IMG/VR virus record: IMGVR_UViG_3300036770_004297
Coordinates: 1 to 22,608 of that record
DNA length: 22,608 nt
From: a virus
Strand: one strand, 5' to 3'
The notes under the pieces are model-generated. The model was not told the DNA's origin, did not search any database, and worked only from the letters and a program-made list of their open reading frames with translations. Position numbers and translations under genes: made by a program. This document shows, piece by piece, positions 3,285-22,461 of the stretch (the first letter of the stretch is position 1; the number at the start of each line of letters is the position of its first letter).

Positions 3285-6200
3285 ATGGCATACATAATCA
3301 ACAGATTCGACGGAACAAGACTAGTCGCTATAGATGATGGAGTTTTAGACACTAGTACTCCGTTGGGCTTGGTAGGAAGAAACTATACTGGATGGGGAGA
3401 AGTTTTTAATGAAAACTTCATTTTTCTATTAGAAAATTTCCATGGATCTAATCCTCCTGCAAGGGCATTATCCGGTCAGGCATGGTACGATTCTTCTAAT
3501 AAACTTTTAAAAGTATTCAACGGTGTAGACTGGGGCGCTATTGGTAATGCTACAATATCAGAAACAGAACCTGAAATCACACAAGGCGGCCTGTGGCTTA
3601 AATCTACCACTAATCAATTGTATGTTAATGACGGATTTAACTGGAAACTGGTAGGACCAGAGGCAGTAGAAAATTTTGAGGTAACAAGATTAGTCAGCCA
3701 GTCTTTGTTGAGTGTTACCGGTGTAACAGTCCCAGTAATTATAAGTTATATCGACAATCAAGCAATTTCTATATATTCGAATCAAGCATTTACAATCGAT
3801 AATAATTCGACACCAATATCTGGATTTTCAATAATAGTAAAAGGTCTCACCTTTAGATCAGATTCTTCAGTAGCAGCTAATCTTGTTGGAAATGCAGATA
3901 CTGCAACATCATTGCAGACAGCAAGAAAAATTAATACGATTAATTTTGACGGTACCTCAGATATTACAATTAAATCTAGCACAACAACCTTCTTGAAAAA
4001 GGGAAATTATATTGTTGGTGCGGATTGGGACGGCTCGATCGAAACAACCTGGGCAGTTGACGCTACTCCAGAAAATAGAATTGGAAAAGTAGTAGCTAGA
4101 GATTCAAATGGAGCATTTTCCGCTGAAGAAATTACGGCTAATTTCTTTAGAGGTGATTTAAATGGGAATGTTACGGCGGTGTCGGGTAACAGTAGTTTTG
4201 ATACAATTACTGCGAACACAGTTACAGCTGAAGTTATAGGAAATTCAGCCACTGCTACTAAATTAAGATCGGCTAGAACTATTAATACTATCCCTTTCGA
4301 CGGGACAGCGAATATAACGTTGCCGGTTCCAGCAGAAACATTGGTTGGATCTACACTTGCACCTAACATTTTAAGTTCTTCTTTAACTTCGGTAGGAAAA
4401 TTAACAGATTTAGAAGTTGAAGCTGCTGGTATCGAAATTTCTAATGATAACAGTAAACTAACATTTAGTCTTGACGGATTAATTCCTACGATAAAATCAG
4501 AGCTGACTAATAATATTAAATTAGAATTAGCTACAGGTTCAGCGCAATCAACACAATCAGATATTTCTTTCGTTTCTGCAGCAGCCTCTGGATTATCAGG
4601 ACCGGCATTTGTAGCTGACTGGAATAAAACCATTCCAGATGCTCAAAAAATAAGTTTAGGAACACCGGGAAATAGATGGAACAACTTATATTCAGATAAT
4701 ATAAATTCTAAAGATTTAAAAATATTAACAGTATCTAACGCTAATAATACAGCCCAGGCAGTAGCTTTCTTGGGAGGGATAACTGTAGCAGGAACAGTTC
4801 AAGGCAATGTAATAGGTAATCTAACTGGCAACGTAAGTGGCAACGTAGTTGGAAACGTCACTGGACAATCTAGTCTAAACCTGTTAAAAGCAGGCGATAC
4901 AATGACTGGCAACATCACGTTAGACGGTGATGGGTTAGGAACAGTTTGGACAACTACATCTGAAGTGGCTAACATAAAGTACTATGATGTTTCTCCTTTC
5001 GGAAGTAGGTTAGAATTTAATACTATCGGTGACGGCAGTGAATATTTTACCTTCACGCACACATACGGTGACGGCAGTCGTGTAAGTTTAATGAAGTTAG
5101 ACCCGAGTGTCGGAAATACTAGCTTGACAGTATATGGTACTATTACTGCTAATAACAATATTACAGCACCATCATTTCAAGGCAACGGATCAAATCTTAC
5201 ATCCTTGAATGCGTCGCAATTATCTTCGGGTATAGTTCCTTCTGGAAGACTAGCAGGCTCTTATAATATCGATATAAACGGAAGAGTTCAAGGTAATTTA
5301 GTTGGTAATGTAACAGGTAATGTAACGGGTAATGTAACAGGTTCGTCTAGTCTCAATGTTTTGAAAACAGGCGACACTATGTCTGGAGACATAAATTGGA
5401 ACACGACCGGTACTGGTATTAGCTGGGCGTTAAACACCGACGGTGCTAGTATTAGATTTTATAACACCGGCGACGGTGATGCCTCTAGTAGATTAGAATT
5501 CAATACCAGTGACAATAACAATGAATATTTTAGATGGACACACACTGCTTCTGGCACAGGTATCTATGAAGTTATGAAACTGATGCCTAATAGTTTCGGT
5601 AATTCGATGCTAACAGTGCAAGGAGATATAACATCTACAAGAACTATATCTGCTGGAAGTTTTGGAGGTAACGGATCGGGTTTATCTAATCTTGTTGCAA
5701 ATAGTATAACTTCTGGAACATTGCCTATAGGTAGACTTTCTGGTACCTACAATATCAATATTTCTGGAACAGCAGCAACAGCGACTAATTCTACGTTTGC
5801 TACTAATTTAAGTGGAGGGTTTGTTAGCGCATCAACCGGATCGTTTACTGGCATATTGAATGTGTCAGCAGGATCGGGCGGAGGAATTAAATTCCCAAAT
5901 GATGCGTTTGGTGGCGGTGGAGATACCGCCAGTATAACTCTTGAAAGCGTCGGTGGCGAAAGAACTAGAATGAGATTTAGGGTCACCAATGATGCTGGAA
6001 TCAGCGGAACAGACGATAAAGCAGAGTTTCTTGTACCCGATAATGATAGTCTGTTAGTTAATGGTCATGTTGTTTTAAATGCAAGCAATTATAATAATTA
6101 TGCACCAACAAAGTCGGGCGGCGGGGCCACCGGCACTTGGCCGATTAATATTACAGGAAATGCAAATACAGTTAATAGCATTACTGCCAGTCAGATTGTA

Positions 6201-7634
6201 AATGCATTGGGTTACACACCACTGTCTTCAGTATCAACACCGAGCAACCAGGCCGGCCAACCTATATTCACTGGTGCAGGTTCGAACAGTGGTTTAAGAT
6301 TTCCTAATGATGCCTACGGTGGAGCATTTGATACAGCCACAATTACCTTAGAAACCAAAGGCGGTGAAGCAACTAGAATGACACTGCGGGTCACTAATGA
6401 TGCGGATGATACAATAGAATTCTTTACGCCAGCACGTGATGGAGTTAGGATCAATAATCACACTGTACTACATGCCGGCAACTGGCAAGATTATGGACCA
6501 AATAGAACAGGCGGTGGCGCCAGTGGTACCTGGCCAATCAGTATTACAGGAAATGCGCAGACAGTCAGTTCTATAACATCAGCACAAATTGTAAATGCCT
6601 TAGGTTATACTCCTATTTCGTCAGTGGCAGCAGCAAGCAATCAAGCTGGCCAACCAATTTATACTGGCGCAGGATCAGGTAGCGGTTTACGATTTCCATC
6701 AAATGCTTACGGTGGCGGTGGCGACACAGCTACAGTTACTTTGGAAACCAAAGGTGGAGAAGCTACTAGATTAACTTTACGTGTAACCAATGACGCAGAT
6801 GATACTATAGAATTTTTTACACCTGCCCGTGACGGTATTAGAGCTAACGGACATATAGTTTTACATGCCGGTAACTGGCAAGACTATGGACCGAATAGAA
6901 CAGGTAGCGGAGCCAGTGGCACTTGGCCAATCAATATTACTGGTAATGCAAACACAGTTAGCAATATCTCAGCTTCACAAATTGTAAATGCTTTAGGTTA
7001 TACTCCTATCTCGTCGTCATCCTTTGGCGGTGGCCCTGTTAATGCTACATCGGGATCTTTTTCTGGATTATTAAGAGTTTCAGCCGGAGGACCACAGTCT
7101 TCGGGAATTGCATTCCCTAACGACCCATACGGCGGTTCGGGAGATACAGCTACTATTACTTACGAATCTGTAGGCGGAGAAAGAACTAGATTAAGATTTA
7201 GAGTAACTAATGATGCTAGCGCCAGCGTTAGAGATGAAGCGGAATTTTTAGTACCTGACAATAATGGTTTGTTAGTCAACGGCAATGTAGTATTGCATAC
7301 AGGAAATATTAACAGTTTTATCAATGCTGGTAATGTTAAAGCTTGGGTGAGATTTAGATCTAATGGTTCTATAATTTCTTCATTGAATGTTAACAGTGTT
7401 TCTAGACTAGCCAGCGGAAAATATAGACTTAACATAAATTCCGGAGTTTTTTCTAGTGAATACTTTGCAGCCGCTGGTATGGCTTCGGACGTTGATCACT
7501 TCGTATCTATGAATACATATTCAGTAGGTGGAGCAACATCCACGACACGATTAGATATTAACACTATAGATGCAGCATCAGGTAACGATATTACATCTGA
7601 TTCTGCAGAAACTATGATTATATTGGTGGCTTAA
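3285..7634 (+). CDS. Giant repeat-rich tail fibre protein, shared-adaptor paralogue 2
   Basis: At 1449 residues this is the largest protein in the window. Its start has a good ribosome site (AGGAG at 3274-3278). Residues 1-125 are the shared adaptor (GRNYTGWGEVFNENF, LLENFHG, GQAWYD, LKVFNG). The shaft contains fibre motifs of the GNADTATSLQTARKI / FDGTSDITI type twice, then two GNV arrays each leading into an SLNxLKxGDTMxG block (about residues 507-828), then four FPND-YGG-DTATIT modules (about 870-1330) joined by TWPINITGN and IVNALGYTP linkers like those in lambda Stf and T4-like long fibres. The C-terminal ~120 residues (from KAWVRFRSNG) are non-repetitive and could be the receptor-binding tip; the KAWVxF opening is common in phage fibre tips. 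It probably forms a long trimeric fibre. No chaperone or peptidase domain is recognised at its end; the next gene is a candidate assembly factor, separated by one base. Confidence 0.9.
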   Translation: MAYIINRFDGTRLVAIDDGVLDTSTPLGLVGRNYTGWGEVFNENFIFLLENFHGSNPPARALSGQAWYDSSNKLLKVFNGVDWGAIGNATISETEPEITQGGLWLKSTTNQLYVNDGFNWKLVGPEAVENFEVTRLVSQSLLSVTGVTVPVIISYIDNQAISIYSNQAFTIDNNSTPISGFSIIVKGLTFRSDSSVAANLVGNADTATSLQTARKINTINFDGTSDITIKSSTTTFLKKGNYIVGADWDGSIETTWAVDATPENRIGKVVARDSNGAFSAEEITANFFRGDLNGNVTAVSGNSSFDTITANTVTAEVIGNSATATKLRSARTINTIPFDGTANITLPVPAETLVGSTLAPNILSSSLTSVGKLTDLEVEAAGIEISNDNSKLTFSLDGLIPTIKSELTNNIKLELATGSAQSTQSDISFVSAAASGLSGPAFVADWNKTIPDAQKISLGTPGNRWNNLYSDNINSKDLKILTVSNANNTAQAVAFLGGITVAGTVQGNVIGNLTGNVSGNVVGNVTGQSSLNLLKAGDTMTGNITLDGDGLGTVWTTTSEVANIKYYDVSPFGSRLEFNTIGDGSEYFTFTHTYGDGSRVSLMKLDPSVGNTSLTVYGTITANNNITAPSFQGNGSNLTSLNASQLSSGIVPSGRLAGSYNIDINGRVQGNLVGNVTGNVTGNVTGSSSLNVLKTGDTMSGDINWNTTGTGISWALNTDGASIRFYNTGDGDASSRLEFNTSDNNNEYFRWTHTASGTGIYEVMKLMPNSFGNSMLTVQGDITSTRTISAGSFGGNGSGLSNLVANSITSGTLPIGRLSGTYNINISGTAATATNSTFATNLSGGFVSASTGSFTGILNVSAGSGGGIKFPNDAFGGGGDTASITLESVGGERTRMRFRVTNDAGISGTDDKAEFLVPDNDSLLVNGHVVLNASNYNNYAPTKSGGGATGTWPINITGNANTVNSITASQIVNALGYTPLSSVSTPSNQAGQPIFTGAGSNSGLRFPNDAYGGAFDTATITLETKGGEATRMTLRVTNDADDTIEFFTPARDGVRINNHTVLHAGNWQDYGPNRTGGGASGTWPISITGNAQTVSSITSAQIVNALGYTPISSVAAASNQAGQPIYTGAGSGSGLRFPSNAYGGGGDTATVTLETKGGEATRLTLRVTNDADDTIEFFTPARDGIRANGHIVLHAGNWQDYGPNRTGSGASGTWPINITGNANTVSNISASQIVNALGYTPISSSSFGGGPVNATSGSFSGLLRVSAGGPQSSGIAFPNDPYGGSGDTATITYESVGGERTRLRFRVTNDASASVRDEAEFLVPDNNGLLVNGNVVLHTGNINSFINAGNVKAWVRFRSNGSIISSLNVNSVSRLASGKYRLNINSGVFSSEYFAAAGMASDVDHFVSMNTYSVGGATSTTRLDINTIDAASGNDITSDSAETMIILVA
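4803..5770 (+). repeat. Two ~160-residue in-frame repeats headed by GNV tandem arrays
   Basis: The first copy starts with five GNVx units (12 bases each, 4803-4862); the second with four (5292-5339). Each array runs into SSLNxLKxGDTMxG, then a segment ending RLEFNT...EYF-x-x-THT and an MKL. The copies end in related text: GSYNIDINGR at the end of copy 1, and GTYNINISGT at the end of copy 2. In the second array three adjacent units (5304-5339) differ by only one base. Confidence 0.85.
5872..7310 (+). repeat. Four ~131-140-residue fibre modules (FPND/DTATIT/RVTNDA repeats)
   Basis: The FPND or equivalent motif recurs at 5892, 6300, 6693 and 7113, i.e. spacings of 408, 393 and 420 bases, all in frame. 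Each module reads FPx-x-x-YGG, DTAxIT, GGExTR, RVTNDA, then a short loop and VLHAGN-type end. Copies 1 and 4 share an EFLVPDN loop; copies 2 and 3 share DDTIEFFTPARDG. Copies 2 and 3 are near-identical in protein but carry many synonymous base differences. Confidence 0.9.
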
Positions 7635-13165: not shown

Positions 13166-13516
13166 ATGGAAGAAAAATTAGCACAGATTCTGAAAGTTGC
13201 TGATTATCGACAATCTTTGGCAATTAAAAGAAAAGCATTAAAAGAAAAGATCGAAGGCAAGTTGACATTCGGCCATGCCGGCGGCATATTTAAAATAGAT
13301 CAATCGTTAATACTATTCACCCAATTTCTTATAGATCAAGAAAGAACAACCAATGTTGTGTTGTTAGATCATAACGATAATCCTATTCTTATAACCGATT
13401 TAGTCAAGTTCAAAGAAGAAATAATGGAACGATACTTTACTTCATTATTTGAGTATTATGAACAATATGAAACAATTAAAAAAAGCAGAACTATTGAAAA
13501 ATTATTAGAATCATGA
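13166..13516 (+). CDS. Small conserved-looking phage protein of unknown function
   Basis: The ATG at 13166 is preferred over the upstream TTG at 13154 because GGGAG (13156-13160) stands five bases ahead of it, which gives 116 residues. The protein is charged and mostly helical: EEKLAQILKVADYRQSLAIKRKALKEKIEGKL, then LTFGHAGGIFKID, IDQERTTNVVLLDHNDNPI and a helical tail (FEYYEQYETIKKSRTIEKLL). I recognise the style from T4-like marine phages, where similar proteins are annotated as hypothetical or possible structural components, but I cannot assign a function. Its stop overlaps the ATG of the first glycosyltransferase by four bases (ATGA at 13513), so it probably leads the second operon-like block. 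Confidence 0.75.
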   Translation: MEEKLAQILKVADYRQSLAIKRKALKEKIEGKLTFGHAGGIFKIDQSLILFTQFLIDQERTTNVVLLDHNDNPILITDLVKFKEEIMERYFTSLFEYYEQYETIKKSRTIEKLLES

Positions 13517-14355
13517 ATAATGGGGTGTTGATACTTGCTCATAACAGCGAGTATGTGGACTATGGTCGATTATCGTTGATATCGGGAAGCTTGGCCAAGA
13601 GATATTTAAACGTATCTGTCAGTCTTGCGGCCGATCGCCATACTCTTGATTGGATGAATTCAAATAAGGATTTACAAATCGCAGAACGTGTATTTGATCA
13701 TATAATAGAAATTCCGCATAAGAATGAGAATAATTTTAGAATTTTACACGATGGCGAATCTCATAAAAAGATTCCATTTCTTAACGCTGATAGATTTACA
13801 GCATATGATATAACACCTTATGAAAAAACACTTTTAATTGACTCTGATTTTTTAATTTTTTCTAATCAACTAAATGAATATTGGTCGATGAATGCTCCGG
13901 TCATGGTATCGTCGGGTATTATCGATATAAAAGGGGATAGATTAAGGATATTAGATAAAAAAGTATCTGACACCGGAATTGACATGCTGTGGGCTACTAC
14001 CGTTATGTTTGATAAAAGTCAAGAATCTAAGTGTTTTTTTAACACAGTCAATCTTATTAAAGAAAATTATAGACATTATTCTGATTTGTATAGGTTCGAT
14101 CATAAATCGTACAGAAATGACATAGCCTTTAGTCTGGCATTGCATATGTTGAACGGATTCAGTTTAGATTCTGTTCCTATGCTTCCGAAAATTGTTACTT
14201 TTTTTGATACAGATGAAATTGTATCTATTATAGGAAATAAGATTACATTTTTACTAGATCAAGAATTTCTAGCATCTATCTCTGATCAAGATTTTCATGC
14301 GATGAACAAGCAGAGCATTTTAAGAAACAGCGAAAAGTTTTTGAGTTTAATATGA
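13513..14355 (+). CDS. Glycosyltransferase, GT8-like (GT-A fold, DSD motif)
   Basis: This 280-residue protein starts at the ATGA overlap with the previous gene. The N-terminus GVLILAHNSEYVDYGRLSLISGSLAK suits the first beta-alpha unit of a nucleotide-sugar-binding domain. The segment LNADRFTAYDITPYEKTLLIDSDFLIF places a DSD at residues 110-112, the expected metal/nucleotide-binding DxD after a hydrophobic strand. A later RNDIAFSLALHML segment lines up with TDEAFSLSASIL in the next protein, so the two are paralogues. Known GT-A enzymes of this kind transfer a sugar from a nucleotide donor using a divalent metal. Donor and acceptor cannot be read from the sequence. There is no signal peptide or membrane segment, so it is cytoplasmic. 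Possible targets, both inferred, are phage fibres or host surface glycans. Confidence 0.7.
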   Translation: MNNGVLILAHNSEYVDYGRLSLISGSLAKRYLNVSVSLAADRHTLDWMNSNKDLQIAERVFDHIIEIPHKNENNFRILHDGESHKKIPFLNADRFTAYDITPYEKTLLIDSDFLIFSNQLNEYWSMNAPVMVSSGIIDIKGDRLRILDKKVSDTGIDMLWATTVMFDKSQESKCFFNTVNLIKENYRHYSDLYRFDHKSYRNDIAFSLALHMLNGFSLDSVPMLPKIVTFFDTDEIVSIIGNKITFLLDQEFLASISDQDFHAMNKQSILRNSEKFLSLI

Positions 14356-15197
14356 ATTTTGGATACCTACTAATCGTAAATACCGATGCCGAGTATGACT
14401 ATTTAAAAATGGCCTATGCATTAGCATTAAGTATTAAGAATACTCAAGCCTTGGGATACGATAACGTTGCACTAATAATCAATGATAAAAATAAAATAGA
14501 TACTATTAAATCTCCTTGGGTATTTGATATTGTTATTGAAGAAGAAAAACTTCAATCTGGATGGTTAGGTCGTAGCTATATGGATTCATTATCGCCTTTT
14601 GATCATACAGTTTGCTTAGATGTTGATATGTTGTTTTTACGAGATTATAGTCATTGGATTGATTATTTTATTAAGAATAATGACTTATATGTTACTAGTC
14701 AGTGCTTTACTTATAGAGGCGATAAAGTTACTAGCGATTACTATCGAAAATTTTATAAAAATAACCAGATGCCAGAACTTTATTCAATGTACACATTTTT
14801 TAAGAAAGATTCAGAACTTACAAAAAGTTTCTTTGATATGGCAAGATCGATCATTGATCATCCAAAAGAATTTAAAAATAAATTTTACAAATCAGGACAC
14901 AACGAAATCATAGGAACAGACGAAGCATTTTCCTTGTCGGCCAGCATTTTAGATATTACGGACGATATATCATACGATCTTGAATTTCCTAGAATAGTTC
15001 ATATGAAACCGATGATTCAAGAATGGCCGTGGCCTGCCGATAGCTGGTCAGATCATGTGGGATTTTATTTGAACACTCGAGGTAATTTAAAAATTGGAAA
15101 TTTTCAACAATACGATATCGTTCATTATGTTGAAAAAAACACAATCACTGATGAGCTAATCAGTATTTTAGAAGAGATAGCATGGAAGAAACATTAG
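14352..15197 (+). CDS. Glycosyltransferase, GT8-like (DVD motif)
   Basis: This 281-residue paralogue of the previous protein starts in another ATGA overlap. It begins FGYLLIVNTDAEYDYLKMAYALALSIKN, the usual opening of GT8-like enzymes in which a set of Ala/Ser helices follows the first strand. DVD stands at residues 90-92 within SPFDHTVCLDVDMLFLRDY. HNEIIGTDEAFSLSASIL (about 183-200) fits the acidic D-E-A element of such enzymes, and FPRIVHMKP (about 212-220) carries a His in the position where GT8 members have a donor-phosphate ligand. It therefore looks catalytically complete. Specificity is unknown. The following gene starts inside this one, 16 bases before its end. Confidence 0.72.
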   Translation: MNFGYLLIVNTDAEYDYLKMAYALALSIKNTQALGYDNVALIINDKNKIDTIKSPWVFDIVIEEEKLQSGWLGRSYMDSLSPFDHTVCLDVDMLFLRDYSHWIDYFIKNNDLYVTSQCFTYRGDKVTSDYYRKFYKNNQMPELYSMYTFFKKDSELTKSFFDMARSIIDHPKEFKNKFYKSGHNEIIGTDEAFSLSASILDITDDISYDLEFPRIVHMKPMIQEWPWPADSWSDHVGFYLNTRGNLKIGNFQQYDIVHYVEKNTITDELISILEEIAWKKH

Positions 15198-15760
15198 TAG
15201 AATTTCAAAAGAAATTTCATAACTTAATTGATGATACAAAATATTTCTTTGTCTATGATATCGAAGGAAACGTAGAAGCATTGCAGCCCACTAGCATGTG
15301 CGGCAATGAAAAATTCTCTGTTGAAGTATCGAAGGATATCGTAGATCTAATACATACAAATCAAGAAGTTTTATCTTCTTATAAAGTAGACGTAGTTAGC
15401 AGATCTATTTTTAAGAAAAAGTCTATAGATATAGTTAGCATCGACGATGTCGTGCATCGAATCATTGAAAAGAAATACACCACTCGAGAACCAGATATAT
15501 CTATCTTGTATGATAATTCGAAAAAATGTTTAAAATTTTCTTTAAACTCTAAACATCATAATACTATATGGTCTGGAAATACTTCTTTGTATTTTACAGT
15601 AACGAAATATAATGACCCCAATGATATATTAAGTTTTATCAGTTTTCCTGTCGAAAGTCTTATTTCTGAAGATATAAAAATTGATGTATCATATGTCACA
15701 GAACGATTCAGTCTGTATACGAGGCGGATATTTAAAAATTACGTCGTGGAATATCTATGA
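15182..15760 (+). CDS. Unknown protein embedded among glycosyltransferase genes
   Basis: I do not recognise this 192-residue protein. The ATG at 15182 lies 16 bases inside the preceding gene, with a GAAGAGA purine run just upstream. The N-terminal half is mixed alpha/beta and acidic (FQKKFHNLIDDTKYFFVYDIEGN). The C-terminal half looks beta-rich (ISILYDNSKKCLKFSLNSK, TSLYFTVTKYNDPNDIL, IDVSYVTERFSLYTRRIF). No DxD, Cys cluster, signal peptide or membrane segment is visible. It ends in an ATGA overlap with the next gene, so it is co-translated with the sugar-transfer genes. It could be an accessory or carbohydrate-binding subunit, or a structural protein; neither is supported by a motif. Confidence 0.7.
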   Translation: MEETLVEFQKKFHNLIDDTKYFFVYDIEGNVEALQPTSMCGNEKFSVEVSKDIVDLIHTNQEVLSSYKVDVVSRSIFKKKSIDIVSIDDVVHRIIEKKYTTREPDISILYDNSKKCLKFSLNSKHHNTIWSGNTSLYFTVTKYNDPNDILSFISFPVESLISEDIKIDVSYVTERFSLYTRRIFKNYVVEYL

Positions 15761-16641
15761 AAATAACAGATTTAGATGTGATCTTTATCAGCTACGATGA
15801 ACCTAATGCTGAAATAAATTACGCCGACCTATGCAATAAAGTGCCATGGGCTAAAAGAGTTCATGGAATAAAGGGGAGCGATGCTGCACACAAGGCAGCA
15901 GCCAATCTTTCAGAATCTGATTGGTTAATAACTGTCGATGCTGATAATATTGTCAATAATGAGTTTTTTAATCTCGAAATAGACTTACAATCTGCGAACG
16001 TTAAAGTTTTTAGTTGGTTAGCAAAAAACAATGTCAACGGATTAATGTATGGTAATGGCGGATTAAAAATATGGAAGAAAGAGTTTATTTTAAATATGAA
16101 AACGCACGAAGAAAGTACTTCGGAAAGAGCCCAAGTTGATTTTTGTTGGGAAGACGGCTATAGGCAGTTCTTTTCATGTTACAGCGAGACTGTGATCACA
16201 GGTACTCCGTTTCAAGCCTGGAGAGCAGGGTTCCGCGAAGGAGTAAAAATGACACTAGTCGATGGAGTTCGTGTTCCGTCAAAAGAAATACAACAACGTG
16301 TTTGGTGGCATAATCTTCATAGACTAAAAATTTGGTCGACAATAGGGGCACATGTAGAAAATGGAATATACTCAGTATTAGGGGCTAGATTAGGTAACTG
16401 GATGGCTAATTGCAGCGATTGGAATTATGTCGACGTGAGAGATTTTGAAATACTAAAAGAAATTTATGAAACACAGGTAAATCATAATGATCCTACAGAG
16501 CAAGTCATAGAATTAGGAGAAAAGTTAAAATTAGGTTTAGGAATTTCATATCCTTTCTTTGATACAGATAGTAGCAGATATATGCACGATACCTATTTAG
16601 AAACAATAAATTTAGCAAGGACTTACTATAAAGATGTATGA
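15757..16641 (+). CDS. GT-A-like glycosyltransferase family protein (DAD motif)
   Basis: This 294-residue protein starts in an ATGA overlap. It opens DVIFISYDEPNAEINYADL, then PWAKRVHGIKGSDAAHKAAA and WLITVDADNIV, placing DAD at residues 61-63. The arrangement (first strand, a short RVxGxKG segment, an Ala-rich helix, then strand plus DxD) is that of a GT2-like GT-A nucleotide-sugar domain. The middle carries GNGGLKIWKKEF, and the C-terminal half PFQAWRAGFREGVKM and LKIWSTIGAHVENGIYSVLGAR. All these elements recur in the C-terminal domain of the next protein, so the two are homologous over almost their full length. I have seen this style of protein annotated as hypothetical in T4-like marine phages. 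Glycosyltransferase activity is inferred from the fold signature; donor and acceptor are unknown. Confidence 0.65.
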   Translation: MKITDLDVIFISYDEPNAEINYADLCNKVPWAKRVHGIKGSDAAHKAAANLSESDWLITVDADNIVNNEFFNLEIDLQSANVKVFSWLAKNNVNGLMYGNGGLKIWKKEFILNMKTHEESTSERAQVDFCWEDGYRQFFSCYSETVITGTPFQAWRAGFREGVKMTLVDGVRVPSKEIQQRVWWHNLHRLKIWSTIGAHVENGIYSVLGARLGNWMANCSDWNYVDVRDFEILKEIYETQVNHNDPTEQVIELGEKLKLGLGISYPFFDTDSSRYMHDTYLETINLARTYYKDV

Positions 16642-18418
16642 TATATTTTACATAGGAAACCAGTCCGTTGACGATGACTCTTGGAGTAAATTTTCTAAAA
16701 GATTTCCTAGAGCACAAAAAGTTGAAAACGTAGAATCTCTAGATCAACTTAAGACTAAATCATTCACTAAATTTTTCTGGGTAGTACCGGACGATATAAC
16801 AATCTTGGATGATTTTGATTTTAGTTATGTGGTGCCTATATGGGACGAACCATATATTAATGTATTTAAAAATGGAAAATATTATAACGGGGTTACAATT
16901 TTTTCAAAAAATCATTCTATTTCGAAAAAAGAATGGAACAATAGGTTTTTTATAAATCGAAAAGAAATAGATATTCCGGCCAGTATACCCAAATATTCAT
17001 ATCAAGATATATTATATGTGTCTAGTGAAAATGCAAGCGAAACAGACTGGAATCAATTTCGCAGATCATATCCTCGATCAAAACTTGTAGAAAATGTTAA
17101 ATCTTTCGATGACATAAAAGCAGTATCAGACACTAATTTTTTCTGGGTAGTATGGGACGACATTGAAATTTTAAAAGATTTTAATTTTGAATATCAGATA
17201 CCTCCATGGGATGAAAAATATGTTCATGTATTTAAAAATGGAAAATATTATAACGGAGTTGCGATCTTTTCAAAAAATCATTCCATTTCGAAAAAAGAAT
17301 GGAACAATAGATTTTTTATAAATCGAAAAGAAATAGATATTTCGGCCAGCGTACCAAAATATTCACTCCACGATATACTATATGTGTCTGATGAAAATGC
17401 AAGCGAAACAGATTGGAATCAATTTCGTAGATTATATCCTCGATCGAAACTTGTAGAAAATGTTAAATCTTTCGATGACATAAAAGCGGTATCGGATACT
17501 AATCTTTTTTGGGTAGTATGGGACGACATTGAAATTTTAAAAGATTTTAATTTTGAATATCAGATACCTCCATGGGATGAAAAATATGTTCACGTATTTA
17601 GGAATGGAAAATATTATAACGGGGTGACAATTTTTTCCAAAGAACATGCCGTATCACAGAGAGAGTGGGACTTTAGATTTTTTACAAATAAAAAAGAAAT
17701 CAACTTATTAGCCAGTGTTCCAAGAGAAACCATTTTCGATATAATTTTTTTAAGTTACGACGAACCATATGCTGATGAAAATTTTAAAAAGTTACAAGAT
17801 AGATTTCCAAATGCAAAAAGAGTACACGGAGTAAAAGGGTTACATCAAGCACACATTAGAGCGGCTGAAATTTCTGAGACTGAGATGTTCTGGGTAGTAG
17901 ATGCGGATGCTGAAGTTTTAGATACCTTTAATTTTGATTTTATAGAGCCAGAAAGATTTACAGTCTATGTCTGGAATAGTATTAATCCTATAAACGGATT
18001 AGAGTACGGATATGGCGGCGTAAAATTGTTTCCTAAACGACTAGCATTGAATATGCAATTAAACACAACTGATGTAACAACTAGTGTTTCTATAAAATTT
18101 GAAAGAATAAATTACGTGTCTAATATCACTAGATTTAATATTGATGCTTTCTCAACCTGGAGATCTGCATTTAGAGAATGTGCGAAGCTATCGAGCAAAG
18201 TTATTGATAGAAATTACGAACCGGAAACAGATTTAAGATTAGAAACTTGGTGTACGATAGGTGAAGATAAACCCTATGGAAAATATGCAATAGCAGGAGC
18301 GATTGAAGGTAAAAAGTTTGGTGAAATTAATATTGGAAACACAGAAGTGCTGTGCTTCGTAAATGACTTTGAATGGCTAAAAGATAGATTTGATAAATGG
18401 GCAGAAAGCAATGAATGA
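16634..18418 (+). CDS. GT-like protein with three degenerate tandem N-terminal modules and one complete C-terminal domain
   Basis: This 594-residue protein overlaps the preceding gene by eight bases. Aspartates at residues 3, 125, 247 and 369 mark four module starts exactly 122 residues apart. Modules 1-3 each run from DI(F/L)Y(I/V), through a P-R-x-x-VENV segment and FFWVV(P/W)DD, to NGKYYNG...FSK and a KKEI end. Module 4 continues into a full domain: FLSYDEPYADENF, AKRVHGVKG, FWVVDADAEV (DAD at 423-425), GYGGVKLFPK, FSTWRSAFRECAK and LETWCTIGEDKPYGKYAIAG, matching the previous protein. In modules 1-3 the first Asp of DxD is replaced by Pro or Trp while a DD remains, so they may not bind a metal-nucleotide and could instead bind a partner or acceptor. 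No frameshift or stop interrupts the repeats. Function is inferred only from the C-terminal homology. Confidence 0.7.
   Translation: MYDIFYIGNQSVDDDSWSKFSKRFPRAQKVENVESLDQLKTKSFTKFFWVVPDDITILDDFDFSYVVPIWDEPYINVFKNGKYYNGVTIFSKNHSISKKEWNNRFFINRKEIDIPASIPKYSYQDILYVSSENASETDWNQFRRSYPRSKLVENVKSFDDIKAVSDTNFFWVVWDDIEILKDFNFEYQIPPWDEKYVHVFKNGKYYNGVAIFSKNHSISKKEWNNRFFINRKEIDISASVPKYSLHDILYVSDENASETDWNQFRRLYPRSKLVENVKSFDDIKAVSDTNLFWVVWDDIEILKDFNFEYQIPPWDEKYVHVFRNGKYYNGVTIFSKEHAVSQREWDFRFFTNKKEINLLASVPRETIFDIIFLSYDEPYADENFKKLQDRFPNAKRVHGVKGLHQAHIRAAEISETEMFWVVDADAEVLDTFNFDFIEPERFTVYVWNSINPINGLEYGYGGVKLFPKRLALNMQLNTTDVTTSVSIKFERINYVSNITRFNIDAFSTWRSAFRECAKLSSKVIDRNYEPETDLRLETWCTIGEDKPYGKYAIAGAIEGKKFGEINIGNTEVLCFVNDFEWLKDRFDKWAESNE
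16640..17737 (+). repeat. Three consecutive 366-base (122-residue) modules
   Basis: Modules begin at 16640, 17006 and 17372, and the related but longer fourth domain begins at 17738. All three intervals are exactly 366 bases with no insertion or deletion. Module 1 is the most diverged in its first half; module 3 is the most diverged in its second half. Confidence 0.95.
16860..17591 (+). repeat. Recent 366-base tandem duplication out of phase with the protein modules
   Basis: Bases 16860-17225 and 17226-17591 are direct tandem copies with about 26 differences by hand count (roughly 93% identity). The unit runs from the second half of module 1 through the first half of module 2, and its copy from the second half of module 2 through the first half of module 3. 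An unbroken match of about 80 bases sits at the right-hand part of each copy. Confidence 0.85.
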
Positions 18419-19826
18419 ATATATCAAAGGCGATAAGATTAAAATAATCGATGGAAAGATATACTCAGGATATAGTTTAAATGCTAAAACAGTATTTGAT
18501 CAGCTAAATGAAGTTAGCCCTAGTTTTTGTCTTGCGAAATGGTATAACGTAAGTATCCATATTCCAACCGGCCAGACTCATAGTTGTTATCATCCTCGTA
18601 GCCATAAAATACCGTTAGATGAAATAAAAATAAATGTCGATGCGCTACATAATACCAAGTATAAAAAGTTACAAAGAGAAAAAATGCTGAACGGTGAAAG
18701 ACCCGAAGAGTGTAATTATTGCTGGCAAGTTGAGGATAGTGGAAATCAGTTAAGTGATAGAGCATATCGATCTAAAGATGTTTATGAAGACGGGCTAATC
18801 AAAGAAGCGGTTAACACAGCGAATCCCATGCCAAGATATGTAGAAGTCAATTTTAATCAAGCGTGTAATTTTCGCTGCTCGTATTGTAGTCCACATCTTT
18901 CTACCGCCTGGCAAAAAGATATAGAAAAAAACGGTCCTTTTAAAATTGCTGATAGGTGGCACAATGATCTAAATTGGATGAAGAAGGATATGATGCCTGA
19001 CAATTCTTTGTCTAATCCATACTTGTTAGCTTTCTGGGAATGGCTTCCTACAATATATCCGACACTGCAAACTTTTAGAATGACCGGCGGTGAACCATTG
19101 ATGGATAAAAATACATTTAAAATGTTCGATTACATTTATAGTCATCCTAAGCCAGATTTAAATCTCAGTATCACTTCTAATTGTTGCCCTCCAGGAAATC
19201 AATGGCAAAAATTTATGGATTCGTTGAATGCTGTGGTACAGAAAGATGCTATAGATCATTTTATGTTATTTTGTAGTTTAGACAGCTGGGGACCACAAGC
19301 AGAATATATTAGAGATGGTATGAATTTTAACTTGTTGCTGTCTAATATTAATGATTTTTTATCTAGAGGATCAAAGCATAGTCTTTCTTTTATAATCACG
19401 TTTAATGTATTAAGTTATCCTAGATTTAAAAAATATTTGGAAGAAATATTAAACTTAAGAAAAATTTACAGTAACGATAGACAATTGATATGGTTTGACG
19501 TACCGCAATTGCATTATCCAGAATGGTTGAATCCTAAAATTAATTTAGAAATGCTAGGCGAACTCGAGCAATGTTTAGAATTTATGAAAATTCACGAAGA
19601 AACACCGTCTACGCGGTTTAAAGGCTTTAAAGATTTTGAAATAAGTAAGGTTCAACGATTAATTGATTGGATAAAAACTCCTCCAGACTTTAATATAGAT
19701 CTACAAATGAAAAATTTTTATCTATATTTTAGCGAACATGATAGAAGAAGAACAACTAATTTTATAGAAATCTTTCCAGAGTTTGAAGATTTTTATAATC
19801 GATGTAAGGACAAATCAAATGCCTAG
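18411..19826 (+). CDS. Radical SAM protein with N-terminal twitch-like Cys region, paralogue 1
   Basis: The ATG at 18411 is chosen over an upstream TTG at 18390; it overlaps the previous gene by eight bases and gives 471 residues. An N-terminal Cys region comes first: C40 (SPSFCLAKW), C59 (SCYHPRSH), C101 and C104 (ECNYCW). The radical SAM signature CNFRCSYC follows with C152, C156 and C159, then a GGE SAM-binding motif in RMTGGEPL (226-228). AEYIRDGM and a C-terminal DRRRTTNF...FPEF close the pattern. This layout fits the twitch-domain-containing radical SAM family, in which a half-SPASM auxiliary-cluster region lies before the radical SAM core. Such enzymes cleave S-adenosylmethionine to start radical chemistry using a 4Fe-4S cluster; the N-terminal Cys set could hold a second cluster. 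The substrate is unknown. Confidence 0.88.
   Translation: MNEYIKGDKIKIIDGKIYSGYSLNAKTVFDQLNEVSPSFCLAKWYNVSIHIPTGQTHSCYHPRSHKIPLDEIKINVDALHNTKYKKLQREKMLNGERPEECNYCWQVEDSGNQLSDRAYRSKDVYEDGLIKEAVNTANPMPRYVEVNFNQACNFRCSYCSPHLSTAWQKDIEKNGPFKIADRWHNDLNWMKKDMMPDNSLSNPYLLAFWEWLPTIYPTLQTFRMTGGEPLMDKNTFKMFDYIYSHPKPDLNLSITSNCCPPGNQWQKFMDSLNAVVQKDAIDHFMLFCSLDSWGPQAEYIRDGMNFNLLLSNINDFLSRGSKHSLSFIITFNVLSYPRFKKYLEEILNLRKIYSNDRQLIWFDVPQLHYPEWLNPKINLEMLGELEQCLEFMKIHEETPSTRFKGFKDFEISKVQRLIDWIKTPPDFNIDLQMKNFYLYFSEHDRRRTTNFIEIFPEFEDFYNRCKDKSNA
19805..19810 (+). promoter_or_regulatory. Ribosome binding site deciding the start of the second radical SAM gene
   Basis: TAAGGA lies eight bases before the ATG at 19819, inside the 3' end of the previous gene. 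It favours this ATG over the in-frame TTG at 19783, which has no such site. Confidence 0.6.
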
Positions 19827-21168
19827 ACTAGATAATGAGACTGACTTTGAGTATAAGAAAAGAGTATTAGATAAACTGTCTCCTAGTTTTTGCGGAGCTA
19901 AATGGTACAATGCTACAATATGGTTAGGCAGTGGTCGAACTACCAGTTGTCATCATCCGCCAGCGCATTTTATTAGTGTAGAATCAGTAAAAGCCAACTA
20001 TAAGGCATTGCATAATACACCTGAAAAGAAAGAAGATAGACGTAAAATGCAATTAGGCGAAAGACCTACTGGTTGTGAATATTGCTGGAAGATAGAGGAT
20101 ATGGGATCAGATGTTGCTAGTGATAGACCAGATAAGAGTGCTAGGTATAGCGACGAAGATTTATCTATAGCTAAAAATTTAGATTATAACGAAGACATAA
20201 ATCTACAGACATTGGAAATTGCTTTTGACCGAACCTGTCAATTCGCTTGTAGTTATTGTAATCCTGCATTTTCTACTACATGGGTAAAAGATATAAAAAA
20301 ATCTGGACCATACATAAATTTGGTAACAGATGGAAGAGGGCATTTTACTCATGTACATTCAAATGATCAATTATATGATTACAATGAAGATAACCCTTAT
20401 GTTGATGCCTTTTTTCAATGGTGGGAATCGGATTTACACAGAACATTAAGTGAATTAAGAATAACTGGAGGAGAGCCGTTAATGAGCGGTCATACCTGGA
20501 AGTTGTTCGAATGGTTTGAAAAGAATAAACAAAAAAGCCAGACAAAACTGGCTATTAACTCTAATTTAGGATTTGAAAAATCTCTCTTGATAAAAATGTT
20601 AGATGCTACGGAATATACTAGTTTAACCATTTATTCGAGTAATGAGAGTGTTGGTAGTCAAGCTGAATACATTCGCGATGGTTTAGATTGGAACCAATGG
20701 AAAGAAAACATGGAGTTTCTATTAGAATCAAAACGATTAGATAGTTTAAATGTCATGTGTACAATCAATGCACTGTGCTTAGATTCTCTATGTCAATTTC
20801 TCGATTTGATAGTTCAGTGGAAAAGAAAGTATACGCCATCTGCGATAATGTTCAGCTTAAACATAATGAGATTTCCGAGTTTTCAAGGATGTTTGGTCTT
20901 GCCATCCTCTTTAAGAACATATTATAAAGAACAGTTATTGAATTGGTATAATAATAATATTCACCATCTACATAACTTTGAAAAAAATCATGTCGAACGA
21001 TTAATAGATTATTTAGATAAAGTAAATATTCCTCACGGGGAGGGTTTCGATCGAAATATGGCAGAGAGAGATTTTAAAAATTTTTATCAGCAATACGACC
21101 TTAGACGAAATAAAAATCTTTCAGAAACGTTTAGTCAGAGACTAGTGGATTGGTATACTCAATTATAA
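19819..21168 (+). CDS. Radical SAM protein with N-terminal twitch-like Cys region, paralogue 2
   Basis: Starting at the ATG at 19819 gives 449 residues and an eight-base overlap with the previous gene. Cys region: C25 (SPSFCGAKWY), C44 (SCHHPPAH), C86 and C89 (GCEYCW). The radical SAM motif CQFACSYC has C140, C144 and C147, and RITGGEP has GGE at 217-219. AEYIRDGLDW and the end motif YDLRRNKNL...DWY repeat the pattern of the first paralogue. The text between the two Cys regions (HNTPEKKEDRRKMQLGERP) is close to that of paralogues 1 and 3, so all three descend from one gene. Every cluster-binding Cys is present, so it should be active. The stop codon abuts the ATG of the third copy. The substrate is unknown; three copies in a row suggest sequential or alternative substrates. 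Confidence 0.88.
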   Translation: MPRLDNETDFEYKKRVLDKLSPSFCGAKWYNATIWLGSGRTTSCHHPPAHFISVESVKANYKALHNTPEKKEDRRKMQLGERPTGCEYCWKIEDMGSDVASDRPDKSARYSDEDLSIAKNLDYNEDINLQTLEIAFDRTCQFACSYCNPAFSTTWVKDIKKSGPYINLVTDGRGHFTHVHSNDQLYDYNEDNPYVDAFFQWWESDLHRTLSELRITGGEPLMSGHTWKLFEWFEKNKQKSQTKLAINSNLGFEKSLLIKMLDATEYTSLTIYSSNESVGSQAEYIRDGLDWNQWKENMEFLLESKRLDSLNVMCTINALCLDSLCQFLDLIVQWKRKYTPSAIMFSLNIMRFPSFQGCLVLPSSLRTYYKEQLLNWYNNNIHHLHNFEKNHVERLIDYLDKVNIPHGEGFDRNMAERDFKNFYQQYDLRRNKNLSETFSQRLVDWYTQL

Positions 21169-22461
21169 ATGAATACTCCAAAAGATTTTAAAATTAAATT
21201 TATGGATCCGATTAGCGATAGTTGGTGTGCTGCTAAATGGTTTGAAGGAACTATTTGGTTATATAAAGGAATGACTGCTAGTTGTCATCATAATCCGTTC
21301 CATCAGATCGAATTAGACGATAATCCTGCTTCTTTACATAATACTCCACAAAAAATAAATGAACGTAAAGATATGTTAAGCGGAAATAAACCTGAAGGAT
21401 GTAATTATTGTTGGAGCATAGAAAAAAGTGGTGGAGTAAGTGACCGAATAGAAAAAACTAGAGCTACTCCGATAGAAAGAATTATCAGTTGGAAAGATAG
21501 TGGAAAATCTCTAGTGGAAATTCCATATATGTTAGAAATAGCTTTTGAACGAACGTGTAATTTGGCGTGTTCATACTGTAGTAGTGATTTTAGTAGTAAG
21601 TGGGTTAATGATCTTAAAGCTCATGGTCCGTATTCTAACATTAAAACAGACTCACGATATTTTAAAATTAGTGAAGTAATTGAACCTGAAAACAATCGAT
21701 ACATTGAAGCTTTTTTTATATGGCTTCCTGAACTAGTTAAAAAATTAATTAATATAAGAATAACTGGCGGGGAACCTTTGTTAAGCAATAGTTTCTGGAA
21801 ATTTTTAGATTCGGTAGAATCTTTAGGGTACAGTGGAAAGATATCAGTTAATACAAATCTAATTAATAAAAAAGGGGAGATACAGAGATTAATCGATAAA
21901 TCTAAAAGTTTAGATATAATTCTTTATACAAGTATTGAAAGTAATTTCAATGATGCCGAGTATACTAGAGATGGATTTGATAGAGAGTTATGGACAAATA
22001 ATTTAACTAGAATCTTAAATGAAACTTCGATACCTGTAATAATATCTACCAGTATTAATAATATCAGTGTTTGGACATTTATCGAGTTAGTTAAAATGAT
22101 TATCGAGTACAAGAAAAAATATGGAACTAATAGAATCACAATGGGATGTAACTTTGTGCATTATCCAGTTTTCATGCGTGTTAAATTAATCGATATCTAT
22201 AATAGATTAAAATTAGTAACACAATTACAACAATTAATTTCGAGTAATACAGAATTTTTTATAGATTCTGAAATTGTACAGTTTGATAGATTTTATACCA
22301 TTATGTCTGATCCCGATAATGGAATTGAGGAATCGTATATTAGTTTAAATGATGTATACAATGACTTAAAATCATTTATTACACAGTATGATAGCCGAAG
22401 GAATAAGAATTATAAATCGCTATCGTCAGAATTTATTAGTTGGTATGACTCTATTAATTAA
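21169..22461 (+). CDS. Radical SAM protein with N-terminal twitch-like Cys region, paralogue 3
   Basis: This 430-residue protein starts directly after the TAA of paralogue 2 (TAAATG). Cys region: C20 (SDSWCAAKWF), C39 (SCHHNPFH), C78 and C81 (GCNYCW). CNLACSYC has C130, C134 and C137, and RITGGEPLL has GGE at 200-202. DAEYTRDGF and YDSRRNKN...SWYDS match the other two copies. It is the shortest of the three and the most A+T-rich by eye. No visible ribosome site other than A-rich sequence precedes the start, so translation is probably by re-initiation. The chemistry is as for the other two copies; the substrate is unknown. The gene ends where a minus-strand gene ends, with overlapping stop codons. 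Confidence 0.88.
   Translation: MNTPKDFKIKFMDPISDSWCAAKWFEGTIWLYKGMTASCHHNPFHQIELDDNPASLHNTPQKINERKDMLSGNKPEGCNYCWSIEKSGGVSDRIEKTRATPIERIISWKDSGKSLVEIPYMLEIAFERTCNLACSYCSSDFSSKWVNDLKAHGPYSNIKTDSRYFKISEVIEPENNRYIEAFFIWLPELVKKLINIRITGGEPLLSNSFWKFLDSVESLGYSGKISVNTNLINKKGEIQRLIDKSKSLDIILYTSIESNFNDAEYTRDGFDRELWTNNLTRILNETSIPVIISTSINNISVWTFIELVKMIIEYKKKYGTNRITMGCNFVHYPVFMRVKLIDIYNRLKLVTQLQQLISSNTEFFIDSEIVQFDRFYTIMSDPDNGIEESYISLNDVYNDLKSFITQYDSRRNKNYKSLSSEFISWYDSIN

Follow-up and report, generated by a model that had tools for sequence, protein, structure and literature searches.

Organization of the locus

The stretch of DNA analyzed is a 22.6-kb virus record, called the window below (22,608 nucleotides). 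A complete ORF at 16634..18418 encodes a protein of 594 aa, in which three pseudo-GT-A modules precede a catalytic-type GT-A domain. The modules, each predicted to be a mini GT-A core, cover residues 3-124 (module 1, m1; 16640..17005), 125-246 (m2; 17006..17371) and 247-368 (m3; 17372..17737). Residues 369-594 (17738..18415) form a C-terminal GT-A domain of 226 residues that is predicted to be catalytic and is referred to as the C domain. The ORF, its parts and the flanking paralogue and radical-SAM (rSAM) genes are all in the plus strand.

The gene immediately upstream (15757..16641) overlaps the start of the modular ORF by 8 nt and encodes a 294-aa single-domain paralogue of the C domain (36% identity) that has no modules. 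This paralogue keeps the DAD, GG and W..FRE motifs and has an insertion. Downstream there are three genes for twitch-domain radical SAM proteins at 18390..19826 (likely starting with the ATG at 18411), 19783..21168 and 21169..22461. Their NF033640 scores of 313, 279 and 240 bits, respectively, are all above the curated cut-off of 170 bits. Three consecutive genes of this kind (18390-22461) are an unusual tandem set for one phage contig.

Two further ORFs, 13513-14355 and 14352-15197, encode proteins of about 280 aa with DxD-like motifs (LIDSDF and CLDVDM) and no curated family; they are probably further glycosyltransferases. Genes of tail-fibre type, with a Phage tail collar domain and PHROG tail families, are found upstream at 177-1391. 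A 1449-aa tail-fibre-like protein encoded at 3285-7634 is internally repetitive, with repeats such as those near DTATITLETKGGEATR and LKTGDTMSGDI. The T4-type major capsid protein gp23 is encoded in 7 of 16 family records and not in the window record, which is a fragment.

A fixed partnership of modular proteins with radical SAM proteins was considered as a rule and rejected. Among 79 modular viral loci with enough downstream sequence, an rSAM gene was the next gene in only 16, and in 52 none was found within 6 kb.

Repeat structure of the protein

The ORF and the domain starts at residues 3, 125, 247 and 369 were as claimed in an earlier note made from the sequence alone. That note had also described an exact 122-residue period over all four starts. 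The period holds among the three modules: ungapped comparison over 122 residues gave identities of 64% (m1/m2), 82% (m2/m3) and 52% (m1/m3), whereas shuffled sequences averaged 7% and never exceeded 16%, and a DNA repeat search found three copies with a spacing of 366/366 nt. The fourth start joins the series only by gapped or profile alignment. Without gaps, residues 369-490 share 4-8% identity with m1-m3, so the relation between modules and C domain had to be tested with profiles.

For this a module HMM was used that had no C domain in its training set. It matched the N-terminal part of the C domain with E 8e-9 in the window protein and with E of about 3e-12 to 8e-13 in its relatives. In agreement, hhalign aligned modules with the C domain at 98.2% (E 3.8e-14), and a C-domain HMM matched all three window modules from its column 1 to columns 74-92. 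The homology spans approximately 110 N-terminal residues of the C domain. These three comparisons uphold the view that the glycosyltransferase-like C-terminal domain follows degenerate modules homologous to it. The modules had, however, been taken for copies of the protein's own N-terminal module, and this has to be revised: the module profile matches modules from different phages with E of about 1e-30 to 1e-45, far better than it matches C domains. Judged by these profiles, the modules are a separate, ancient family, and the C domain is an ancient paralogue starting in register.

Predicted structure

The AlphaFold2 model of the full protein, built with 70 natural sequences, had a pLDDT of 92.9 and a pTM of 0.71; module 2 modeled alone (59 sequences) gave 94.5 and 0.87. 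All four domains of the full model have the same order of elements: strand-helix-strand-helix-strand-strand-strand-strand-helix-long strand. The fourth domain alone continues into additional helices (residues 505-593), and the modules are without C-terminal helices. Prediction for the full protein and for the single module thus bore out the structural relationship of the modules to the C domain.

By AlphaFold2 and VIA-align the C domain has a GT-A-type Rossmann-like alpha/beta/alpha core. VIA-align matched it over 129-171 residues, with Z of 10-11.8, to the GT-A enzymes B4GALNT1, WrtF and ThuS and to nucleotidyltransferases of the IspD type. A single module was matched over residues 1-121 of 123 with Z of 7-8.6, and its list consisted almost exclusively of GT-A-fold chains. 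Foldseek with the module alone was weak (best E 0.0085, none below 0.001), and the GT-A assignment of the module therefore rests on the whole match list together with the homology to the C domain. The end-to-end match to complete GT-A enzymes indicates that the modules are whole miniature cores and not half-domains. In this respect the models, which predict a complete, compact miniature GT-A core for every module, disagree with the earlier description of the modules as partial nucleotide-binding units.

Active-site motifs

The C domain contains a DxD-type metal/nucleotide motif, DAD, at residues 423-425 (D423 and D425; 17900..17908), and DxD is invariant in the aligned C domains of the family. 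At the corresponding position the window modules have the triplets PDD (m1; 16787..16795), WDD (m2; 17153..17161) and WDD (m3; 17519..17527), in all of which the first Asp is lost. Since the DxD motif is absent, we named the modules pseudo-GT-A. Of 211 modules with a readable site, none has the first Asp, which makes donor binding by the modules doubtful. The second or third position of the motif is acidic in many of them (WDD, YDD, PSD).

The C-domain loop NPxNxLxYGYGG is shortened to NGxxYDG in the modules. Residues conserved among modules (module numbering) are H76, N80, E100, R104 and S117; E100 is invariant and sits in the helix after the GG-like loop. Loss of the motif and the shortened loop suggest that the modules are not catalytic. 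Metal-independent GT-A enzymes do exist, and one is present among the weak Foldseek matches of the module, so the missing first Asp alone is no proof of inactivity.

Distribution of the family and number of modules

A search with the full protein found 51 viral loci. With the C-domain alignment at least 600 viral and 99 bacterial stretches were found, and 80 of each were kept for analysis. The comparison of module counts that the earlier note had proposed revealed about 90 viral loci in which 1-12 modules precede a single C domain. Among 171 untruncated viral ORFs, 90 had no module and 81 had 1-7, most commonly 5; these loci are not independent phage samples, and ORFs of the paralogue type are counted in the zero class. 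The largest array, in L097 (1-4303), has at least 12 modules before one C domain and its ORF is cut by the contig end. No modules were found in the bacterial relatives kept (80 of 99).

In the relatives, the later modules are approximately 100 residues long and an opening strand-helix of about 28 residues is confined to the first module. The window protein is the only one seen with this opening element in every module. In a module tree the three window modules form one clade (support 0.999), which nests within a group otherwise composed of first-position modules of other proteins (support 0.88). This placement argues that a first-type module was multiplied locally to give the window array.

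Module number varies between related proteins. It nearly always differs in pairs with C domains less than 70% identical and differs in about 60% of pairs at 70-80% identity. In one pair (L064 and L065) the C domains are 96% identical and there are 3 and 4 modules, with a 300-nt difference; the breakpoint fit was ambiguous here, and only the difference of one module was used. An apparent contrast of 0 and 5 modules at locus L047 was rejected because a frameshift puts its array and its C domain into two overlapping reading frames.

The longest relatives, such as L019 (residues 1-140), start with a further, much diverged module-like region containing YVWVVDESIE, which the module HMM detects weakly. 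Actinobacterial loci (L148-L210, mostly Streptomyces) encode single-domain relatives of the GT-A domain; at L185, the only one of them examined, this gene adjoins GT4-type and GT2-type genes. More generally, in the loci examined, the bacterial relatives adjoin GT4, GT2, NDP-sugar dehydrogenase or twitch-rSAM genes. A Bdellovibrionia locus (L138) has the paralogue, the single domain and a twitch rSAM gene in the order of the window.

Origin of the third module and selection on the array

Comparison of adjacent modules at the nucleotide level revealed an abrupt switch of identity. Modules 1 and 2 are 62% identical before module nucleotide 221 and 90% after it, and for modules 2 and 3 the values are reversed, 95% before and 70% after (breakpoint permutation p 2e-4). 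The switch is the trace of one staggered in-frame duplication of 366 nt. The two copies of the unit are 16861..17226 (from the middle of module 1 to the middle of module 2) and 17227..17592 (from the middle of module 2 to the middle of module 3), which are 92.9% identical. The third module of the window thus arose by duplication of the first of these units into the second and, most simply, the gene had two modules before this event.

Between the duplicated units dN is 0.038 and dS 0.277 (NG86), a dN/dS of 0.14; between modules the ratio is 0.18-0.39. The reading frame is intact in almost all arrays. Purifying selection on the modules suggests that they are in use.

Database searches

Neither modules nor C domain had a convincing match in Pfam, NCBIfam or PHROG: no Pfam match was found in 12 family members, and NCBIfam gave no match to a glycosyltransferase family. 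Hits of the full ORF to Exo_endo_phos (4e-4), Imm15, phrog_16394 and exoDNase_III cover 16-48 residues, are below the cut-off wherever one exists, and were dismissed as chance. As no curated GT family matched, the C domain was not assigned to any numbered GT family. A PDB sequence search gave no match to modules or C domain, and no match to the GT-A family was found among the isolated phages searched.

Foldseek detected two BFVD models annotated as uncharacterised proteins of 'uncultured Caudovirales phage', A0A6J5LK21 (E 1.8e-41) and A0A6J5L5L5 (E 8.9e-39), aligned over more than 640 columns. With 804 and 1076 aa they are longer than the window protein (594 aa), and they probably share its repeat architecture. 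This apparently similar architecture is therefore already present in public databases without a description. Both GT-A enzymes and inactive accessory domains of GT-A fold have been described. A search of open-access papers found no account of miniature pseudo-GT-A domains arrayed in variable number ahead of a single active-type domain and, on tandem inactive GT domains, nothing relevant beyond LH3.

Possible function of the array

The architecture is well supported; as to function, we infer sugar transfer by the C domain, acceptor binding by the modules and a surface or virion glycan as the target. GT-A-type folds are common to nucleotidyltransferases, so the designation glycosyltransferase rests on the DxD motif, the fold and the gene neighbourhood. 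The C-terminal domain, with its DAD motif, conserved YGYGG loop and helical C-terminal subdomain, would be the catalytic unit. The three N-terminal modules, folded completely and catalytically crippled, would form a non-catalytic array, most likely one that binds or positions a repetitive acceptor such as a cell-surface glycan or a glycosylated fibre or coat protein of the phage. Its length would change when recombination between modules duplicates or removes whole modules in frame. We give roughly even chances to this reading, a GT-A enzyme glycosylating a surface or fibre whose pseudo-GT-A array holds the acceptor. Among the roles considered in the earlier note, a decoy, an acceptor-binding arm or an oligomerisation device, the acceptor arm is the one we favour. 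The range from none to twelve modules in related uncultured phages suggests fast-evolving grips for the target of the enzyme. The module-free half of the family (those 90 of 171 ORFs, paralogue type included) indicates that the array is dispensable for the basic function.

The main rival to acceptor binding is that the array is a spacer or an oligomerisation device, its modules packing on each other or on partner enzymes (the 294-aa paralogue, the radical SAM proteins) and setting the distance or stoichiometry of a complex. The computed data are compatible with either, and we regard the spacer as a possible, if somewhat unlikely, explanation. It would fit the variation of module number beside a constant C domain, the overlap and common direction of the genes, with paralogue and rSAM genes sometimes near, and the frequent pairing of GT-A folds, as in CHSY3-CHPF and LH3 in the fold-search lists. 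A version with a fixed rSAM partner is made unlikely by the counts of 16 and 52 among 79 loci given above. It is rather unlikely, in our estimate, that the array is an evolvable recognition arm in the stricter sense, in which each module would read part of a surface or fibre glycan and recombination between modules would change length and specificity. By exchanging modules or gaining new ones, a phage could then direct an unchanged catalytic domain to another target, much like the role of tail-fibre genes in adsorption.

We consider it improbable that the modules are active or regulatory nucleotide-sugar binders, whether as metal-independent GT-A enzymes, a donor reservoir or allosteric sites. 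Their complete GT-A core, the acidic residue at position 2 or 3 of the lost motif in many of them and the invariant E100 could be read in this way, but all 211 lack the first Asp, the loop is reduced to NGxxYDG and there is no C-terminal helical part. The degenerate motif and the existence of members without modules might suggest non-functional debris of tandem duplication. Such debris is extremely unlikely in view of dN/dS of 0.14-0.39, the frame kept in almost all arrays, the strong conservation of modules across distant loci and the high pLDDT. A metagenome assembly artefact as the source of the third copy is very unlikely too: although the window is a single record and no second record was found with three modules each bearing the opening strand-helix, 7% of sites, most of them synonymous, are different between the two copies of the duplicated unit, and similar arrays are present in many independent samples.

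The modules and their catalytic partner belong to a family present in at least 600 stretches of uncultured phage DNA and without a convincing match to a curated family. Should the array prove to read the acceptor, it would illustrate a way in which phages vary the enzymes they use for remodelling host surfaces or their own fibres, and it would be a source of small carbohydrate-recognition candidates of about 100-120 aa.

Comparison with known systems

Host-recognition clusters of pelagimyophages are hypervariable islands in which tail-fibre genes occur together with glycosyltransferase genes and radical-SAM cassettes, and they have been interpreted as serving alteration of the host surface (PMC7029224). 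The window resembles them in its kinds of genes, a likeness that assigns it neither a host nor a phage type. GT8 was the commonest family in those clusters and the consulted part of the study reports no modular pseudo-GT-A arrays (PMC7029224), whereas the window has one.

Two GT-A domains in one chain or complex occur in E. coli K4 chondroitin polymerase (K4CP; 2z86) and in CHSY3-CHPF, and K4CP was the best Foldseek match for the model of the whole protein. Both GT-A domains of K4CP are full-size and both bind donor sugars. In the window protein, by contrast, all domains but one are cut down and lack DxD.

A closer parallel is LH3 (PLOD3), chains of which are present in the Foldseek list. It combines a catalytic GT domain with an inactive accessory (AC) domain of GT-A fold, possibly serving collagen recognition (PMC6082870), and like the window protein it thus has a catalytic GT-A domain together with a domain of homologous fold without activity. 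LH3 has one full-size accessory domain, placed after the GT domain, and in addition a hydroxylase domain; in the phage family 1-12 miniature pseudo-domains precede the single GT-A domain. Among solved structures, the LH3 accessory domain comes nearest as a precedent for an inactive GT-A domain that serves an active neighbour.
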